From positions 1 to 64,000 of the forward strand of contig WHVA01000372.1 of NCBI GenBank assembly GCA_015179125.1: a stretch of 64,000 nucleotides of DNA. The letters run 5' to 3'. Below the pieces are notes generated by a model, which had not been told where the DNA came from, did no database searches, and saw only the letters and a program-made list of their open reading frames with translations. Below are positions 1,844 to 14,100 of the stretch, piece by piece. Made by a program: the position numbers and the translations under genes. Source of the DNA: Gautieria morchelliformis (Eukaryota > Basidiomycota > Agaricomycetes > Gomphales > Gomphaceae). Each line of letters opens with the position of its first letter. The stretch's first letter is position 1.

Positions 1844-1913
1844 GACGAGCGGAGAGCAACCCGGCCGCAAGAAGAATGTCCATGGACACGTCCGTGGACC
1901 ACCTAACCCTAAT
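1844..1913 (+). repeat. Left target duplication and terminal inverted repeat
   Basis: GACGAGCG (1844-1851) is followed by the TIR from 1852. Inside the TIR two near-palindromic boxes, GTCCATGGAC (1878-1887) and GTCCGTGGAC (1890-1899), start 12 bp apart and are followed by CCTAACCCTAA. These are probably transposase-binding repeats. Confidence 0.75.
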
Positions 1914-2065
1914 ATTAGTAATACATGGAACCATTGTCAACGACGCTCATGACGACGACGGCCTCACGCTGCGACGTAGTGGCGGCAACGTCACCCTTCT
2001 GCACTCTCCTCTAGTATATTCACTCTTTTTCCTCCATGGCTCCAAATTCACCCCAATACTCACGT

Positions 2066-3436
2066 CGCTCTACCATGCGTCACCGTCCCATTGGAATTGG
2101 CGTTCAAGGCCCGGCTGACACATTCATGGCATTGCGCATGCCATTTGACTCTACTGCTGCTAAAGAACTCAACATACAGATATTTGAAACCATTTACCAC
2201 GCAGCAGTTTGGCCAGCGTGGACATGGCTCAAACGCACGGCCCTTACGAGTCATGGGAAGGCAGCCCAGCCAGCTAAGGCCGGCTTCAATTTGACTTGTG
2301 GGACGTCACCCCGACGGACCTTTTGGGAATGGGACGGGCTTAAGGGGAGGGTTAAGCGTGTGGGGATGAGGACCCACTGCTTTGCGCTCCAATGCCCACT
2401 ACATCGACAAGTCAAATCTTGGGCTTCAATGAGTGCTTCGAACCCTACGCAAGGTGTGCTGTTTCTTGCATGCGTCATTGAATGTACTATGCTGATGAAC
2501 ACAAACCTTCAGCAACATCTATACATGTCGTATTCTTGTTGGGGAGTTCCAGATTGTGTGCCCTTGGTTACTCAAGGAACTTGTTGAGCTCAGCTCTGGG
2601 ATGATGACATGAAGAACCAAATCATTGCCGCGAACGGTGAGTAGCGCCCTGTTGTTCCTGGCGCCCTCGCTCACGAGCACTTGGGTAGGTCGATCCAGAG
2701 TATCCCTACTATCCCAGATGACGTGAAGGCCATCTACAAGACCGTGTGGGAGTTAAGTCAAAAGAAGGTGGTAGACCTCGCTGCTGACCGTGCGGCATAC
2801 ATCTGTCAAAGCCAGAGCTTGAATGTGCACCTGGCAAACCCGATCATGGGTCAGCTGGTGGGTACCTGTCTTGTTCTGGTGAGAAGATGATGCTGATGAT
2901 CAATGTTCAGACAGGTATGCACTTCTATGGGTGGAAGAAGGCTCTGAAGGCCGGCATGTAGTAAGTGCTTGCTTATAGATTCAACGTGTTATCTAACAAT
3001 ACCCGCCGCTAGTCTCCTGCGAACTCGTCCGGCCGCTCAAACCATCCAGTCCACAATTGATCAAAGCTTCTTGAAGAAAAAGACACCAGCAGTGATGCCG
3101 ACACCGTCGCCCTCTCCCTCTCCCTCGCCAACATCCAAAGCGAAGGCCGAGCCCTCGACACCCAAAGTCAATGGCACAGCGATCGTCAAAGCCGAACCTG
3201 TCATACCCACCGTGTCAAGCTGCGCGGGACATAGTCCGAGTCGCCGTCACCATCCCCGACTCCCACCACACCTTCAGATGCTGAGCTTGTTTCGCTCGAC
3301 CCGAGAACGGCCAAGGCGGCATCTGAAGACCCAGACTTTGCTGGGGCGCTGGAGAGGCAGCGGATCGCGAGCTCTAGGAGGCAAAGTTGATGTTCTCGTT
3401 GGAAAATAAGGAAGCATGCACTATGTGCTCGGGATG
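2066..3436 (+). pseudogene. RNR1: Ribonucleotide reductase large subunit, C-terminal fragment
   Basis: The frame from 2066 reads MRHRPIGIGVQG, then FMALRMPFDS and AKELNIQIFETIYHAA, hallmark class Ia R1 sequences. Further blocks follow in order: [76 protein letters not shown] and LLRTRPAAQTIQSTIDQS. The end is ENKEACTMCSG plus stop at 3434-3436, which is the redox-active C-terminal tail of fungal R1. Introns with GT-AG borders are retained at 2454-2512, 2637-2688, 2858-2910 and 2961-3012, so the copy came from genomic DNA and not from mRNA. The frame is disrupted between about 2210 and 2400 and again in the C-terminal region, and the N-terminal half is missing, so it cannot make an enzyme. It lies inside a KDZ-ended transposon. 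Confidence 0.9.
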
Positions 3437-3508
3437 ATGTAATTTGGCCGTAGCCTACCCAGTCTGCTTTTCTGTTTTCGTGTTTGTTGCAACGCTTGTC
3501 CGGTGCCG

Positions 3509-4010
3509 CAGCCCTGGTACTGTGGAGCGCTATGATACCAGTATTACCGTAATTCTCTGAGAGGAAATTAACACCAAACCTGTTGATAAGAGTTCCTAAA
3601 GTTTCTACTCGTTGGGGTCTTGACAATAGAGGGAATATCGTACTCGGCCGTGCACGCGTATCGAACGCAGTACAATCTTGCTGTGATTCGGCGCAGTGGA
3701 TCACTTCAAACTTGCAGACAACCGTGTGTCCTTTTCCAGGACAGCGATGATGAATGAAAGAATGGGGTGCCACATGGCCCACAGCCCTGGCACTGTGGAG
3801 TGTTATGATATCAGTATTACCATGATGCTCTGAGAGAACATTAACACCAAACCTTTTGATAAGCTTTCCTAAAGTTTCTACTTGTTGAGGTCTTGACAAC
3901 AGAGACTCGGCCGTGGACGCCGCACGCGTATCGAACGCAGTACAATCTTGCTGTGATTTGGCACGGTGGATCACTTGCAAGACAACACCCGTGTGTCCTT
4001 TTCCAGGACA
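3509..4010. repeat. Tandem duplication, two diverged units
   Basis: Unit 1 (about 3509-3781) and unit 2 (about 3782-4010) align along their length: both begin CAGCCCTGG, share CAGTATTACC, CCTAAAGTTTCTACT and a CGCGTATCGAACGCAGTACA block, and end in GTGTGTCCTTTTCCAGGACA. Unit 2 carries small deletions. It follows the RNR1 fragment directly and may be part of the captured locus or a transposon-internal repeat. Confidence 0.8.
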
Positions 4011-4183
4011 CAAGGTATAACAGCAGCGTCAACCTGCATACTTATGCCCGCTAACGCCACTCATTTTTTCTGCTAAGTACTATTAGTTATACTATATTAG
4101 GAAATATAACATCACATAATCATTGTGGGTGCTGTGGGCGACCATGCCTCCCAGCGGGTGCTATGGTAATTTGAGGGCGTCAT

Positions 4184-4262
4184 AGGGTTAGTGGGTCCAT
4201 GGGTGTGTCCACGGACCCGTCCGTGGACAAACTTCCGGCGGCAGGGTCTTTCTGGACGAGCG
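4184..4262 (-). repeat. Right terminal inverted repeat and target duplication
   Basis: Three boxes starting at 4195 (GTCCATGGGT), 4207 (GTCCACGGAC) and 4219 (GTCCGTGGAC) are spaced exactly 12 bp apart. The TIR ends at 4254 with GGGTCTTTCTG, followed by GACGAGCG at 4255-4262. Confidence 0.8.
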
Positions 4263-4412
4263 CGGCGAGTTAAGCGCTACAACCGGGCTGATTAAGGTAG
4301 CTGAAGTAAGCCCCCTTCCATAAATAGCAGAACTGTCATTCTCGTGCGGACACTCCTTTCCTTTCGCCTCCATCTACCCCCTCTGGTAGGACGCAGGCGG
4401 AAGTTTTCTCTT

Positions 4413-5927
4413 ATGGCTCCCGCATCGTACCCCAGCGGTTCTACGGGACATCCTGAGCCATCCACACCGTCTAGGTCAACACCGACGTCATCTTCCACGC
4501 CGAGGCCCCTTAACCCCGGCACCCACTTTAACACCACTACCGGGTCCACGGCCCCTCCAGTACCAAACCCGAGCCCCACGACCATGGCGCCACCTCTCAG
4601 GCCGTCCACCAGGAGACCAACCTCTTCACGCCGTGCCGGTCAACGCACCAGAAGGCTGACACCGAACGAGGTCTTAGACCAGATCAACGGTCTCATCGCA
4701 GCCAGGAACACGGTCAGGGCCGGACGCAGGGCCAGCAACGAGTCCAACGTCTCCGAAGACGAAGACATCCTAACCAGGGCCGACTTCACCGCAATGTACC
4801 TGCAACCCACGCATGGCCCCACACAAACTGGCCCCACACCGACTATCCCCACTACCGCCGCCCAAGCCAATAACCCCATCCAACCCACCATCACCAACCT
4901 ACCGCCTACAGTCAACCCAGCAACGACCGCACCGCCAGCAGAGGTGCCACCGGTCCCTAACAACTCCGCGCCCACATACGCCTTCAGTGACGCAGATGCA
5001 GACACGAACACCCAACAACCGAACAACCACACTATTCCCACCCAACTCATCGCCATGGTCAAAGCCCGTGCATATATCCCACTATCGTTCTTCCTCAGAG
5101 AGAGTATGGACCGGATTAGGCTTGAACTCGACCTAAAGACAACCAAATCAATGACGAAGTCAATACGCCTGATCGACCCGTCCAACTTCATCGACGAGAA
5201 GCAGCTAGACTTTGCCTTATTCAGCGAGGCTTATCACAATTTTATCAGATGTCTCAAACTTTGCATGGCGCCAGGCTCCAAACTCCCGCTGGCCTGGGCA
5301 GATCATTTCAACCGTTGCAGCACCGATCCCCGAATGAAATCAGCCTTCAAGACCTTCTTATATATGGACATCAAGATGTGCCAGCAACTTTTCGACAAAC
5401 CGTTCTCACCGGACACACACAGCACCGAGTACTCGGACGCGTGGCTACTGGCGGACAGGGAGGTGAACGAGGAGAAGATCGCAGACTTGATAAGAGCCTC
5501 AGTCCGCTCTGAACTCGTGGTACACCCACGCTCACAACCCAACAGAAACAACTACAGATTCCAACCTTACGGCCCCCCTGGCCCGAGCGACGCCGGCCCT
5601 TCACGTCACAGCGGCGGACAGAGCCACGCGCCCTTTCAGGCAAAGGCAGAGCATGAGATGAGGCCGAAGCTCTGCCTCAAATGTGGCCTCCCCGACGCTC
5701 ATATCTCCATTCAATGCACCTCAGCTACCATACACGGACATGCCGACCGCAAAACCAACGTCGTGGCTAGAGACAAGAAGCTCTTCTATACCACGGACTC
5801 TGCCGCCGTCTGCTTTAAATTCAACCTCACCGGTGCCTGCACTGCCACCACCGATGGACACCCCCCCCACCGCTGCACCCTCTGCCTCGCAGGTTCCCAT
5901 GGGGCAGTCCGCTGCCCTAGAGTTTGA
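4413..5927 (+). CDS. Gag-like protein of the tyrosine-recombinase retrotransposon
   Basis: An open frame; the ATG at 4413 (MAPASYPSG) is preferred to the upstream ATG at 4344 because the product then begins with a typical disordered Pro/Thr/Ser-rich region. Residues of about 1-210 are low complexity. The middle contains a helical block (about 220-370) with the sequence AFKTFLYMDIKMCQQLF. The C-terminus has cysteine/histidine clusters, first LCLKCGLPDAHISIQC, then a second containing CTLCLAGSHGAVRCPR. Such clusters fit a nucleic-acid-binding structural protein. The end overlaps the next coding block. Confidence 0.65.
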   Translation: MAPASYPSGSTGHPEPSTPSRSTPTSSSTPRPLNPGTHFNTTTGSTAPPVPNPSPTTMAPPLRPSTRRPTSSRRAGQRTRRLTPNEVLDQINGLIAARNTVRAGRRASNESNVSEDEDILTRADFTAMYLQPTHGPTQTGPTPTIPTTAAQANNPIQPTITNLPPTVNPATTAPPAEVPPVPNNSAPTYAFSDADADTNTQQPNNHTIPTQLIAMVKARAYIPLSFFLRESMDRIRLELDLKTTKSMTKSIRLIDPSNFIDEKQLDFALFSEAYHNFIRCLKLCMAPGSKLPLAWADHFNRCSTDPRMKSAFKTFLYMDIKMCQQLFDKPFSPDTHSTEYSDAWLLADREVNEEKIADLIRASVRSELVVHPRSQPNRNNYRFQPYGPPGPSDAGPSRHSGGQSHAPFQAKAEHEMRPKLCLKCGLPDAHISIQCTSATIHGHADRKTNVVARDKKLFYTTDSAAVCFKFNLTGACTATTDGHPPHRCTLCLAGSHGAVRCPRV

Positions 5928-7829
5928 ACAATCCAGGATCGTCACGCCGTACATAGCCACCGCATTCCGTCATTCACTAGAACGCTTCAATCTCTCGACT
6001 GTATATCCTAACATTGTACTAGATATCACCCAGGGTTCACCGATCGGCACACCACCCAACCTTACTGAGACATTCATTCCCCCGAACATGAAATCAGCTC
6101 TAGACCAACCCAACCTAATAGACGAACATCTACAAGAGGAAATCGCCGCTGGTCGTATCACCGGCCCGTTCACGGTCGAGGAAGCCCATACCATCTTCGG
6201 CGGCCACTTCCGAACATCGCCTCTAGGCCTCGTTGAAAAAGAACCCGGCTCCAACAAATGGAGACTTATCAGAAATGCATCCAAAAGAGACTCGCACGGC
6301 ACATCAGTCAACGACATGCTTGACTCAAACGATTTCCCAACGCGGTGGGGCTCAGCGTGGCTCGTAGCCCAATACGTAAGTACCACACATCTTCACTCCA
6401 CATCACATCCCGACCCCACATCACCCACCGCGTCCGCGTCACGCAACACCATGAACCGCATCCACAACAACGAGTTCACACCTCCACATCACATGACGCG
6501 CACACATGCGCACGCGATCGGCGCCACATCCCAACCAAACACCCCACACACACACCCATTTCACACACCGTACCGTCACACACCATGCTGACGCGCGATC
6601 ATCCCCACAGCTCGCCACAGCACCACCCGGCACTCAGGCAGCCTGCCTAGACCTGCAAAAGGCCTACCGGACTTGCCCCGTCCTGCCCGCACAAGCGTTA
6701 CACCGCCGTCTCATGGCGCGACGGCATCTACGTTGACCATGTCCTCCCGTTCGGGCTAGCCACAGCCGGCGGCATACAGGGAACGATCGCCGAAGCCATC
6801 GTGGACATCCTAGGTGGCCACGGTTTAAAAACAGTTTTCCGTTGGGTCGATGATTTCCTAGCCATGCGCGAGCCATCTGACGCTCCCACACACGCAGATC
6901 TCTCAGCCCTGATCCCACACACACGTGCCCAAGACGCCTTCTCCTATGACGTCGACCTGACAACAATCATGGAGGCAACAGACCCTCTGGGAGTTCCTTG
7001 GCACCCGATAGGGACCAAGGGCCATGACTTCACATTCACGACGGAGTACATCGGCTTCACGTGGGACCTAGCAGACCGCACAGTCGCGATCCCTGAACAT
7101 AAGCGCATCAAATACCTCGGCCGCGTCATCTCGTACTCTTCATGCCACAGAGCCCAGCTCCTACCAACCATGAAGCTCCTCGGGACACTGCAACACGTCA
7201 TGTTCGTCCATACGACGGGCCGCTCTTTCCTACCAGCGCTCGCGAGTACCATCCCGAAGTTCACTGCCAATAGATTTTCCTGGCGCTTCATCAACAGGCA
7301 CGTCCGCCTTGACCTTGAGTGGTGGAAGGAGACACTCCGGGTCCCCAACCTCTCCCGATCCCTACTACCACGCTCCACCAAGGACATCGACCTCTGGGTC
7401 AACGCTTCAACATCATGGGGGGTCGGCCTAACGGTCGGAGATGGTTGGGCGGCCTGGCGCCTCAAACCAGGCTGGGACAGAGAAGGACGGGACATCGGCT
7501 GGGCAGAGACGGTGGCCGTAGAGCTCGCCGCCCTCTGGATCCACGCCCTAGGCATCACGGACTCACACGTATGCGTGAACAGCGACAACACGGGTGTTAT
7601 CTTCGCCCTGGCAAGGGGTCGCTCACGCAACCCACAATGCAATGCATCCATCCGTCGCACATCCATCCTACTCACACCCTCGAACGTCACGCTTGACACA
7701 AAGTATGTACCATCCGCGGAGAACAGGGCGGATCTCGTCTCTCGCGGTGAGATGGGCCCACCCGACACGCGCCTCGGCATCCCTTTCACGCTCCCCACGG
7801 AGCTCACACCCTTCCTTGTGCATGCTTAG
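5890..7829 (+). CDS. Reverse transcriptase and RNase H region (tyrosine-recombinase element)
   Basis: Fossil coding block. Early RT features are seen in 6180-6374 (LGLVEKEPGSNKWRLIRNAS). After a CA-rich stretch at about 6375-6610 the RT core resumes with ACLDLQKAYRTCPV, and FRWVDDFLAMRE supplies the catalytic VDD. RNase H features follow from about 7390 (DLWVNASTSWGVGL, GWAETVAVELAALW, CVNSDNTGVI and YVPSAENRADLVSRG near 7710-7745). The 6375-6610 stretch begins GTAAGT and ends in an AG, so it may be a spliceosomal intron; this is inference. No DNA methyltransferase domain is seen between RNase H and the recombinase, which favours Ngaro over DIRS1 type. Confidence 0.65.
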
Positions 7830-7935
7830 ACGACGGGAAATATCGGCTGCGCGCTGTGCCAGCCCATTGCAAGCAGGAGGAGAGGTGGCCGACAACACCT
7901 CCCTACCGCAACCTGCTCGACAACGTAAACCGCGA

Positions 7936-8301
7936 ATGTCACGCGACCCCAACAATTTTCTTGCCCCATCCCCGTTTCGTTCCCATGTTCTTGCTGCAGA
8001 CCGCGCCACATCATGGCGCACTCCTTATTCTATAGAACCAAATCTAATATCCCATTCATCCTTCCCCCCTGAGCACATCGCGCGAATGCGCGAGATTTGT
8101 TCCAGCAGCATGGTCAAGGGCACCCGCCAAGGTTGGGGTGCCGGCATCTTAAGATTCAACCAGTATTGTGACTCAATTGCCTTACCTGAGAGAGACCGCA
8201 TGCCAGCCTCCGAGGTACTACTAGCCCTCTTTGTGACCAATTGCGGGGCCGGCTCCGTGAGCGAATCGTGTATTTCTACCTGGCTAGCCGGCTGTAAATA
8301 A
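7936..8301 (+). CDS. Tyrosine recombinase, N-terminal region
   Basis: The 121-residue frame has the SAM-like core-binding region of phage-type recombinases: KGTRQGWGAGILRFNQYCD, ASEVLLALFVTNCGAG and SCISTWLAG. The catalytic R..HxxR..Y part was not recognised in the sequence that follows. It closes the coding part of the retrotransposon fossil. Confidence 0.55.
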   Translation: MSRDPNNFLAPSPFRSHVLAADRATSWRTPYSIEPNLISHSSFPPEHIARMREICSSSMVKGTRQGWGAGILRFNQYCDSIALPERDRMPASEVLLALFVTNCGAGSVSESCISTWLAGCK

Positions 8302-8955: not shown

Positions 8956-9663
8956 TGTTACGACCGTTCATTTCCGACTTCCGACCCTCAGTTCCGCCAT
9001 ACATTCCGCCTCTCCAATAGTTCTGCCACACGTTCCGCCCCTCCGACATTTCCGCCATTCCGCCCCTTGTACATTTCCCTTGTTCTTTCGACTCTATTAC
9101 TCGGACCCACCGGATCTACCTCGCCATTCATCAAAACCATATATCCGGTCACCCTTGTAGTTCGTTGTCAGATATGTTTTCCCGACCCCTTGTTCTTTGC
9201 CATTTGTTCTACCTTACCCTGAACCCCCCTTGTAGTCCCATTGTTCCCAGTTAGTTAGTTCCCACACATTGTACTCGACTTCCGCTTCCTCCGGAATTTG
9301 CTTAGTACAACACCATTACTTGTTGCTCTGCGCTTTGTATAAAAACCCCCTCATGTATGTCTGTTATTCTGCAATCAGATAATCACCTTCGATACTTGAT
9401 TTCCTTCGCTCCATCTCCTGTTCTTAGCACAGCGAGTCTAGCAAGATCTCAGTCTCTCTCTCAGCCTTCCGTCTTCCGTCTTCCGCCTTCCGCCTTCCGC
9501 CTCAGTTCCGACTCAAGTTCCGACCAAACCTCTGGTCCAGTACTTTCCGACTTCCGGCTCATTTCCGAAATACCTAGGACGATAGTTCATTGGGGGCGCA
9601 ACCTATAAGTTGAAGCCGCTGTCCTTTCCAGTTCCGACTTAGTGGAAATCTCGATACGTAACA
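8956..9663 (+). repeat. 5' LTR, family A
   Basis: The 708-bp repeat runs TGTTAC...CGTAACA and aligns with 16314-16997. It contains a TATA box and short TTCCG-rich repeats near its start and 3' third. Confidence 0.9.
9338..9344 (+). promoter_or_regulatory. TATA box in the family A LTR
   Basis: TATAAAA follows CTTTG. The same CTTTGTATAAAA context recurs in the 3' LTR near 16694-16705 and, on the other strand, in the solo LTR near 60806-60816, so it is a conserved LTR promoter element. Confidence 0.6.
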
Positions 9664-9696
9664 GTATTATCTGATTCCCACCCGATAACTATCACT

Positions 9697-11136
9697 ATGC
9701 CTCCTCGTACCACAGCTACTTCAGCTCGAGCAGGAGCTGTCGAAGCTCTCTCTTATTTTGGCAATCTTAGATCCGCAACACCAAGGCACGCGGAACCCTC
9801 CAGCAGCTCTCGTGCCGACGATGAGCTTCCCGATGCTTTTCCGCAACGTTTCGAAGAAGTTCCCGACGCTAATCCCGACGACAATCCCGACTACGACGGG
9901 AATTCGACGAGTAGCAGCGGCGAACAAACAGCAGCGTCATTCCGACGCCCAGCTCCACCAGCACCACCTCCACCAGGACCACCTCCAGGCGGCCCACCAG
10001 GCGGCCCTCATGGCGGCCCACCCGGCGGTCCCCCAGGCGGTCCTCCCGGTGGTCCTCCACCTCCAATTCCACCTCAGATTCCCGCCAACCCAGTTCCGCC
10101 CGCGCCAGTTCCGGATCTTGCACAAGCCATCGCCATGCTAGCCGGACAACTCCAGCGCCCGGCCCAAGCACCACCACGCCCCAAGACAAAGGTCCGCGAA
10201 CCAGATCAGTTCGACGGTTCCGACCCCAAGAAGCTCCAGCCATTTCTGGTTCAGCTTCAACTCAATTTCCGTGATCGACCCGACGCCTTTCCCGACGACG
10301 AACGAAAGGTCAATTATGCCCTTTCCTATCTCCGAGGCACGGCGCTCGACTATTTCGAACCCGCCCTCATGGATCCGTTCGCTCTCGTCGACTGGGCCGA
10401 CGATTACACCAATTTCATTTCCGAACTCCGCAGCAACTTCGGACCATTTGATATGGAAGCCGATGCGGAAAACGAACTCGATAAGCTTCGCATGAAAGAC
10501 ACTCATAAGATAGCTAAATATATCGTCACGTTTCAGCAGCTCGCTCCTCGAGTCCAATGGGGAGAAGCCGCACTCCGACGCCAGTTTTACATGGGCTTGC
10601 CACCCCGCATCAAGGATGAAATTGCCCGCGTCGGAAAACCCGCCACCCTTACCGACCTCCGCAACCTCGCCCAATCCATCGATTCGCGCTACTGGGAAAG
10701 ACACTCCGAGATTGCTCGTGAAACATCCACCCAGAGCAAGAATGACAAGTCTTCCGACAAGAAGTCTGATAAAGACAAGAAGAAGACCAATTCCGGAAAC
10801 ACCAACTCCGGAAACAACAACAACAACAGTTCCGGATCCAACTCCGGCAACCGGAACAACAACAACACCCCTCGGAACAACCAGGCCTCTGGTTCTAACA
10901 CCAATGCCCGGAAGAGCACCCAGGATCTTTCCGACAAACTTGGGAAAGACGGAAAACTAACCCCTGTAGAACGCCAGCGTCGCATGGACAACAACCTTTG
11001 CCTCTTCTGCGGCAAAGGAGGTCATGTCGCTCGCGACTGCACTCGCGCTTCCGCCTCCGCTGCTAAGGCCAAAGGCCGCGCAGCAAAGACGGAAGAGAAA
11101 TCCGAAGCGGTTCCCGCTGCGGATTCAAAAAAATAG
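9697..11136 (+). CDS. Gag polyprotein, family A chromovirus
   Basis: An open frame of 479 residues starting 34 bp after the 5' LTR. The order is an acidic N-terminus, a Pro/Gly-rich tract (about 85-135), then the retrotransposon gag core (about 165-330; KVREPDQFDGSDPKKLQPFL and LRGTALDYFEPALM), an Asn/Ser/Lys-rich linker, and a CCHC zinc knuckle CLFCGKGGHVARDC near residue 435. It ends in a Lys/Glu-rich tail. This is the particle-forming protein of the element. Confidence 0.85.
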   Translation: MPPRTTATSARAGAVEALSYFGNLRSATPRHAEPSSSSRADDELPDAFPQRFEEVPDANPDDNPDYDGNSTSSSGEQTAASFRRPAPPAPPPPGPPPGGPPGGPHGGPPGGPPGGPPGGPPPPIPPQIPANPVPPAPVPDLAQAIAMLAGQLQRPAQAPPRPKTKVREPDQFDGSDPKKLQPFLVQLQLNFRDRPDAFPDDERKVNYALSYLRGTALDYFEPALMDPFALVDWADDYTNFISELRSNFGPFDMEADAENELDKLRMKDTHKIAKYIVTFQQLAPRVQWGEAALRRQFYMGLPPRIKDEIARVGKPATLTDLRNLAQSIDSRYWERHSEIARETSTQSKNDKSSDKKSDKDKKKTNSGNTNSGNNNNNSSGSNSGNRNNNNTPRNNQASGSNTNARKSTQDLSDKLGKDGKLTPVERQRRMDNNLCLFCGKGGHVARDCTRASASAAKAKGRAAKTEEKSEAVPAADSKK

Positions 11137-11199
11137 TCAGCAGTCCTCCGGCCTCCGCACGAGCTGAGGGCTGTGTTGACCCCATTCGTGCGACAAACG

Positions 11200-14100
11200 A
11201 GGTTAAACTCAACGCATCCGCTCTTTCGTCCTCCGACTCTCTCTCTGTTCCGCTCACTTCCGACACCATTTCCGCACCCCTGTTTACAGCACTGGTCGAC
11301 TCCGGTTCGACTCATTGTTTCCTCGATTCCGACTTTGTTTTGAAACATAAACTTCCGACCCGTAACATTCCGACTATTCCGCTCCGCCTTTTCGACGGGT
11401 CTTCCAACACGGGAATTTCCCAAGTTGTGGATCTGTCTATCCGTTTCGCTACTGGGGACAACCATGAAGTTACGTTTTACGTTACTCCGCTAGATGCTAG
11501 CTGTTCCGTTGTACTAGGACACAATTGGCTCACCCGATATAATCCGTCGATTAACTGGGCATTGGGTCAAATACAGTTCCGTACCCCGGATCAACTTCCG
11601 TCTATTCCGACGTCTTCTGCAAAGATGGCTCAGGCCTCTTCCGCAACTCCGCTCGTGGATTCAGTTCCGCACTCCGGTCCCGCTTTAGCACCTCCGCCCC
11701 TCGAAGCTCCTCGAATTGCGCTCGTTTCCGCCACCGCTTTCCGCGTATTGCAACGGCAAGATGATACGACCGTTTTCCAGCTTCACCTCTCCGATTCGGC
11801 TTCAGTCAAGGCTCGTTCCGCCTCGACTTCCGCTCCGGTCGACATGAGCTCAGTTCCGGAAGAATATCGTGACTTCCCGGACGTGTTCAATAAGGCCAAA
11901 GCCGACAAACCTGCTGAACATCGACCTTACGACTTGAAGATAGATCTGGAAGAAGGAGCATCTCCGCCCCTTGGACCGATCTACTCTCTTTCGCAAAGTG
12001 AACTCCTAACTCTCCGAGAGTTCGTCGATGAACATCTCAACATGGGCTTTATCCGCCCTTCGCTGTCTCCGCACGGCGCTCCGGTCCTCTTCGTCAAGAA
12101 GAAGGATGGATCTCTCCGCCTCTGCGTCGATTTCCGCGGACTCAATGCCCTCACTAAAAAGGACAAATATCCGCTTCCGCGCATTTCCGATTTACTCGAC
12201 ACTCCCCGCAGGGCGAAGATCTACACCAAAATTGACCTCCGGCACGCTTATCACCTTGTCCGCATCCGGGAAGGTGACGAGTGGAAAACCACCTTCCGCA
12301 CCCGCTACGGTGCCTTTGAGTGGACTGTCATGCCTTTTGGTCTAACCAACGCTCCCGCCGCTTTTCAGCGATTCATGAACGACGTATTTTCCGACCTCCT
12401 CGACGTATGCGTTCTAGTCTACATTGACGACATCCTCATCTATTCCGACACACCGGAAAAACATCGGGGACATGTCCGCGAAGTACTCCGCCGTCTACGC
12501 AAACACCATCTCTACGCAAAAGCAGAGAAATGTGAATGGCATCGCGACACGGTCGAATACCTCGGCTACATCCTCTCTCCAACAGGTCTTACCATGGCAG
12601 AGGACAAAGTCAAGGCAATTCAAGAATGGCCGGAACCCCGACGTGTTAAGGATGTGCAGTCTTTCCTTGGCTTCGCCAACTTTTACCGACGTTTCATTTA
12701 TAATTTTTCCGACATTACTGTTCCGCTCACGCGTCTCACCAGAAGGGTGCCCCATGGAATTTCACACCGGAATGCCGTTCCGCATTTGAAGCCCTCAAAT
12801 CGGCCTTCACCACGGCTCCCATACTCGGTTTCTGGATTCCTGATGCCCAACTTGTACTCGAAACCGACGCTTCTGACTACGCGCTAGCCGCCATTCTTTC
12901 CATCATTTCACCCGACGACGGAGAAATTCATCCGATCGCCTTTCATTCCCGCACTTTTCCGCCGCGGAACTCAACTACGACGTCCACGATAAGGAACTAC
13001 TTGCGATTTTCGAAGCCTTCAAAATCTGGAGACATTACCTCGAAGGTCCAACTTATCCGATCGACGTTGTAACGGATCATAAGAACCTTGAGTATTTTGC
13101 AACCACTAAGATTTTGACTCGCCGTCAAGTCCGCTGGTCTGAATACCTCTCACAGTTCAACATGGTGATCCGTTTCCGCCCCGGAAAGCTCGGAGCAAAA
13201 CCCGACGCGCTCACTAGACGTTGGGACGTCTACCCGAAAGAGGGAAGTAGCGACTATGCCAGCGTTAATCCGCACAATTTCCGCCCAGTATTCTCCACTG
13301 AGCAACTGGCATCGTCCCTGCGTGCCACAGCATTGCAGTTTCCGCTACTCCGCGCCTCAATTATTATGGACACCGAGTCTCTCCATTCCGACATCCGTTC
13401 CGCACTCCGTTCCGACCCCACCTCCGCAGCCCACCTCGATGACCGCACCAGTCCTGGATGTCCCTCGATTCCGACGGATTTCTCCGGTACAAGTCCCGGA
13501 TTTACGTTCCGGACACCAACGATCTACGACTTCGCGTGCTCCAGCAAAGCCACGATCATCCGCTCTCAGGACACCAAGGCCAGAACAAGACCCTCGACAT
13601 AATCCGACGTACCTATACTTGGCCCTCCTCCGCACGATGGTCCAAGACTACTGCAAGTCATGCACCACCTGTATGCGAGCCAAGCCTCAACGTCACAAAC
13701 CCTACGGCCTCCTGAAGCAACTTCCGATCCCGGAACAACCGTGGAATTCAATATCCATGGATTTCATTGAGAAACTTCCTAAGTCATCCGGCTATGATAC
13801 CATTCTAGTGATCGTTGACCGCCTCACAAAGCAGTCCATCTTTATTCCGACCTACGACACCATAACTTCCGCCCAGCTCGCACAGCTCTTGTGCTCCACG
13901 TCTTTTCCAAGCACGGAATACCTTCCCATGTCACTTCCGACCGTGGATCCGAATTTGTGTCCTCCTTTTTCCGCACACTCGGCAAGGCTCTCGACATGAA
14001 GCTCCACTTCACTTCCGGTTATCACCCGAAGGAGACGACAAACGGAACGTACTAATCAGACCCTTGAGCAGTATCTCCGGTCTATTGCAACTACCAACAT

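Follow-up and report, generated by a model that had tools for sequence, protein, structure and literature searches.

A probable Pack-TIR element of Gautieria morchelliformis with an intron-containing RNR1 fragment, and the family of copies sharing its ends

Mutator-like elements (MULEs) generate target site duplications (TSDs) of 8–10 bp and have a record of gene capture. For Pack-TIRs, gap filling and fork switching have been proposed as models (PMC8277862). In a fungus, gene capture by transposons with terminal inverted repeats (TIRs) was reported for hAT and Tc1/Mariner elements of Pyrenophora tritici-repentis (PMC3538342), and KDZ elements (Kyakuja, Dileera and Zisupton) carrying TET/JBP genes have been described (PMC12730594). 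Kyakuja elements are characterized by 7-bp TSDs, CA..TG termini and no TIRs, and Zisupton and Dileera by an 8-bp TSD, a length also usual for hAT elements (PMC12730594). In Cryptococcus, the TSD of KDZ1 is 8 bp long and the TIRs of KDZ1–3 span 139–241 bp (PMC12810828). The first-pass annotation of the locus analysed here knew of no established description of gene capture by KDZ elements; apart from the TET/JBP genes, no report of host fragments captured by KDZ elements was found in the literature covered, subscription papers being mostly outside that coverage.

Element structure, RNR1 cargo and target site

The genome was searched as one assembly of 122 Mb in 1,113 contigs. The element is located on contig C418, near the start of the window, i.e. 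the whole stretch of 64,000 nucleotides that was analysed. It is 2,403 bp long (window 1852–4254) and is bounded by the perfect 8-bp target duplications GACGAGCG on the left (1844..1851) and on the right (4255..4262), neither of which is assigned a strand, in agreement with the unit of about 2.4 kb with a perfect 8-bp duplication described earlier. The ends form an imperfect TIR in which 36 of 49 positions match, and a TIR as good was obtained in none of 20,000 shuffles. The termini are GAGAGCAACC.. and ..GGTCTTTCTG, i.e. GA..TG with a TIR of about 49 bp, the first base being unequal between the two ends. The left arm (1852..2062, + strand) contains the TIR and the palindrome TGTCCATGGACACGTCCGTGGAC and closes with nine arm-encoded codons from an ATG (MAPNSPQYS; 2036..2062, +), which are in frame with the captured piece. 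This piece, a frameshifted 3' portion of RNR1, occupies positions 2063..3501 (+). The right arm (3504..4254, +) has the TIR at its 3' end and an internal tandem duplication (3506–3743 and 3779–4010, 82%). The edges of the cargo are sharp, as the left arm runs up to 2062, RNR1 from 2063 to 3501 and the right arm from 3504.

The interior of the element matched the Ribonuc_red_lgC domain (PF02867; window 2015–2584, 1.5e-15), and window 2063–3501 aligned with C637:219888–221328 with 93.0% identity over 1,448 columns. The captured stretch runs from the middle of an exon ('RRSxMRHRPIG') to about 64 bases beyond the stop codon. It contains four introns of 52–59 nt (2454..2512, 2637..2688, 2858..2910 and 2961..3012, all +), which are all the introns of that stretch and, as read by eye, retain intact GT..AG ends. 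The RNR1 copy itself is disrupted by several single-base gains and losses. Nine PF02867 matches were detected in the genome, five on C637, two in this element and one each on C175 and C207. The first half of the profile was covered on C637 alone, which makes C637 the only intact-looking RNR1 found, and no family ends were present around it in the 7.4 kb examined. The first-pass annotation had recognized the C-terminal third of RNR1 with at least four introns in place, and the PF02867 match together with the four retained GT..AG introns bears this out. Its further claim that the fragment had been picked up as DNA agrees with the retention of introns and a parent gene situated elsewhere, on C637. 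The alignment with the intact locus that it had proposed places the capture junctions at 2063–3501 against C637:219888–221328, and the parent locus on C637 speaks against a fragment sitting at its ancestral position.

The joined flanks with one GACGAGCG were used as a query, giving 61 candidates, 40 of which were scored; two of the 40 were the window's own flanks. At 19 of the 40 listed places, the insertion point was crossed without a break, which argues that the element was inserted as one piece, about 25 bp from the edge of a repeat copy whose other copies are intact at this point. The uninterrupted places included C160 (155 bases, equal length on both sides, 99%), C499 (203 bases at 94%) and C281, with the lowest identity at about 75%. 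They are without both arms and without RNR1, and the alignment ranges suggest that the 8-mer occurs there once. The target is a multicopy repeat beginning near window 1827. For four long ORFs downstream of the element (4305–8301), no Pfam match at 0.01 was obtained; they are followed at window 9643–12884 by a gag of the Ty3 type and a frame for protease and reverse transcriptase.

Related copies, their cargos and a shared joint in the left arm

Searches of the genome with the element ends, which the first-pass annotation had suggested, revealed 33 left and 31 right matches. After merging and dropping (split matches of C992, C188, C291 and C959; C291:65051 and one C238 row), these gave 29 left and 29 right ends. 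Colinear pairs of ends were located on eleven contigs; eight copies were examined whole, and C301, C295 and C230 also carry both ends. Perfect 8-bp duplications, differing from copy to copy, were present in all eight whole copies (C418, C715, C1093, C133, C256, C187, C992 and C291), each with a TIR matching at 32–36 of 49 positions. Of the ten copies with both ends in the sequence examined, nine had perfect 8-bp duplications and one (C599) a single mismatch. The C186 copy is 511 bp long and has its own perfect duplication, AGCACGCG. It was listed by one end, as was the C599 copy, and because the two have the left 8-mer in common they may represent one insertion that was copied later. The duplications of the family copies, taken together with the uninterrupted sites, argue against the two ends belonging to unrelated insertions.

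At one-ended loci, no matching duplication was detected in the stretch examined, either for the left ends at L051, L050, L049, L034 and L019 or for the right ends at L023, L021, L022, L033, L035 and L030. On C188 (L031), a left and a right end point apart, without a common duplication. The C133 and C187 copies have large insertions, read as nested from the comparison of shared parts, and the C133 interior contains a 518-bp inverted pair. A search for the end palindrome that allowed up to three mismatches found 57 sites in forward and 58 in reverse orientation, compared with 10 and 9 when the palindrome was reversed as a control. Variants of the palindrome (such as TGTCCATGGACGCGTCCGCGGAC) were also seen at C192:133603, C219:16410, C414:21094, C419:61695, C500:39220, C559:220658 and C239:7359, places absent from the lists of ends, which perhaps belong to a sister transposon family.

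The RNR1 piece was present at three loci at least (C418, C175 and C207), with a more diverged one in C1004. The C175 and C207 pieces were 97.9% and 97.3% identical to that of C418, and identity to C637 was 91.3–94.5% for C175, 91.8% for C207 and 93.0% for C418; a second C175 piece that takes in the arm gave 93.2%, with a single gap of 29 bases. In the first exon, C418 and C175 have the loss of one base and the gain of one base in common, and C418 and C207 share further single-base losses. These shared frameshifts indicate that the RNR1 frame was disrupted before the copies diverged, if not in the source already, and the spread of a piece with a frame lost by then would be independent of RNR1 function. 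The C1004 fragment, 82–87% identical to C418, C207 and C637, reaches the same right-hand limit to within about 8 bases. The left arm–RNR1 joint of C418 recurs in C175 amid different flanking sequence. At C175 a left arm was recognised but no right arm, and at C207 no arm at all, so that these two copies are only presumed to have been moved by this element. The C175 locus (L019) is without RNR1 query positions 493–984, and the armless C207 locus (L020) holds nearly that part (479–952).

Other family members differed in their interiors. The C992 interior is common to C295 (97%), C301 (95%), C188 (94–96%) and C226 (81–84%), and C793, which is in neither list of ends, matches it at 86–90% and is a candidate source. 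The C715 interior is common to C166, C156 and C827, and 1.5 kb of it was found at 95% on C363, likewise in neither list of ends and a candidate source. Judging from these alignments, different family members carry different cargos, and for two of the cargos there are candidate sources where no family end was listed. The C256 interior was rejected as a cargo, as it is a high-copy repeat nested in the element; the matches listed include 10 full-length copies, C256 among them. In the Pfam analysis of cargo and arm ORFs, only RNR1 in the window and a sugar transporter at L050 were above the cut-off, and with no right end found at L050, that locus is a candidate member only. Matches below the cut-off were an RTC4-like domain (0.002), DEAD (0.0016), an aspartyl protease at L051 (7.5e-5) and weaker others.

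On C156 and C827 (L021, L022, L053 and L054), a longer version of the C715 cargo was observed, with minus-strand frames directed inward from the right arm; these frames include an RTC4-like match below threshold and a stretch that, by eye, is rich in cysteine. The left edge shared by C156 and C827 showed no known family end. On C166 (L023:2300–3062), a high-copy repeat, which replaces the left arm, ends within about 12 bases of where the cargo shared with C715 begins. Other copies of that repeat stop at about the same edge, so that C166 is no more than a possible donor of the C715 cargo. One copy of the repeat, 100% identical, was located at a distance of about 16 kb, oriented the other way.

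The left arm through the start-codon stretch is also present in C175, C715 and C448, and is common to these contigs and C418 up to ATGGCTCCAAATTC(A/G)CCCCAATA. Beyond this point, C418 and C175 continue into RNR1, and C715 and C448 into a different, unrelated sequence, the joints of the two cargos to the arm differing by no more than about 4 bases. Read from the ATG of the arm, each cargo is in frame, RNR1 in its native frame and the other in that of a long C166 ORF. The chance of two in-frame joints is 1 in 9, so the shared in-frame joints are suggestive only. The left arm, with an upstream region and nine codons from the ATG, might be a reusable acceptor and the family a cargo-swapping platform for gene fusions, which we consider unlikely. 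The same pattern could arise from one ancestral joint in the arm with the cargo replaced later, instead of independent joining at the same point. If the acceptor point is real, the site at which TIR elements join captured DNA becomes testable.

Origin of the element and candidate transposases

The element is very probably a Pack-TIR (transduplicating) transposon, non-autonomous and moving by cut and paste. It combines TIRs and a target duplication with a host gene fragment whose parent lies elsewhere, and the uninterrupted sites indicate that the whole unit moved. Intron-bearing host DNA with its parent elsewhere, sharp edges and arms of an existing family fit the models proposed for Pack-TIRs, in which gap filling or fork switching precedes transposition (PMC8277862). 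While an element copy was being repaired or replicated, synthesis would have switched from the left arm to RNR1 (C637) and then to the right arm, filling the element with host DNA, and the chimera may then have been moved by a transposase that acted on its ends in trans.

No transposase was found in any family member in this one assembly, nor was a KDZ, hAT or MULE domain found inside any element with these ends. The genome contained 91 KDZ, 42 MULE and at least 152 hAT domain matches (150 of 240 hAT candidates were scored). The comparison of positions covered at least one row per KDZ contig, every one of the 42 MULE rows, and 26 hAT rows, among them the hAT rows of end-bearing contigs.

It is plausible, if short of probable, that the family, still as a Pack-TIR, was moved by a hAT or Mutator-like transposase. 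The TSD length and the capture record of MULEs stated at the outset would fit, and 42 MULE matches were detected. An 8-bp TSD is usual for hAT (PMC12730594), hAT domains are abundant here, and transduplication by a fungal hAT has been published (PMC3538342). However, no hAT match lay within 18 kb of any family end among the matches listed, and the first base is unlike between the two ends. The MULE match nearest to the ends, on C186, was 3 kb away and outside the 511-bp copy, and the next was 48 kb off. The open MULE frame on C186 was rejected as the transposase, since the left end 3 kb from it belongs to the 511-bp copy with its own TSD. That copy is most likely a passenger near the MULE, because it has its own duplication and the C599 copy has the same left 8-mer. 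Apart from C186, no end palindrome was seen by eye beside a KDZ, hAT or MULE domain among the matches listed.

Alternatively, the family, still Pack-TIR, could belong to the KDZ group, of the Zisupton/Dileera kind, its autonomous partner being missing, diverged or unassembled, which seems possible but rather doubtful. The genome is rich in KDZ domains, and the 8-bp TSD of the family matches that of Zisupton/Dileera (PMC12730594) and Cryptococcus KDZ1 (PMC12810828), but TSD length does not decide the superfamily, as hAT elements usually share it. No KDZ (PF18758) match was detected within 45 kb of the 29 left and 29 right ends, and the family end models, compared with the 10 best of the 91 KDZ loci (with flanks of about 1.5 kb), gave a single weak partial match (L045, E 0.005). 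Moreover, the TIRs of Cryptococcus KDZ1–3 exceed the approximately 49 bp observed here (PMC12810828), and GA..TG termini with a TIR are unlike those of Kyakuja. The KDZ-type ends named in the first-pass annotation were thus not upheld, there being no KDZ match within 45 kb of the 58 ends and no likeness to published Kyakuja ends; with no transposase found in any member, a KDZ origin is kept among the alternatives.

In another reading, the RNR1 piece came to a transposon already in place through segmental duplication or ectopic recombination, instead of capture into a mobile unit. This would agree with a DNA-level copy with introns and no long homology at its edges, but is made highly improbable by the uninterrupted sites without both arms and RNR1, the same left arm–RNR1 joint with other flanks in C175 and the frameshifts common to the copies.

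Comparison with known systems

Taken as a Pack-TIR, the element is of a kind already known, since transduplication by fungal DNA transposons has been published for Pyrenophora (PMC3538342). What is added here is the family, the cargo it carries and an acceptor that may be fixed. The capture can be traced stepwise within one assembly, through the parent gene, the capture edges, the spread after decay, the nested insertions and the uninterrupted targets.

As in the Pack-TIRs of animals and Pack-MULEs of plants (PMC8277862), host sequence lies between the ends, the parent is located elsewhere and some elements are multicopy with distinct TSDs; in contrast to them, the host is a fungus, and two cargos meet one acceptor point behind the start codon of an arm. 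The hAT and Tc1/Mariner elements of Pyrenophora tritici-repentis (PMC3538342) are likewise fungal TIR transposons with non-transposon genes, and an in-frame chimera occurs there too. In Pyrenophora, a long form with a hAT transposase is described and the H3-like copies are mostly identical (PMC3538342), whereas here no transposase was found and the cargo is broken. The TET/JBP-carrying Kyakuja, Dileera and Zisupton elements (PMC12730594) are also basidiomycete DNA transposons with acquired genes, with an 8-bp TSD in Dileera and Zisupton. The family described here differs from them in that no KDZ transposase was found and the cargo is not TET/JBP, and it differs from Kyakuja, with its 7-bp TSDs, CA..TG ends and no TIR (PMC12730594), in having 8-bp TSDs, GA..TG ends and a TIR.
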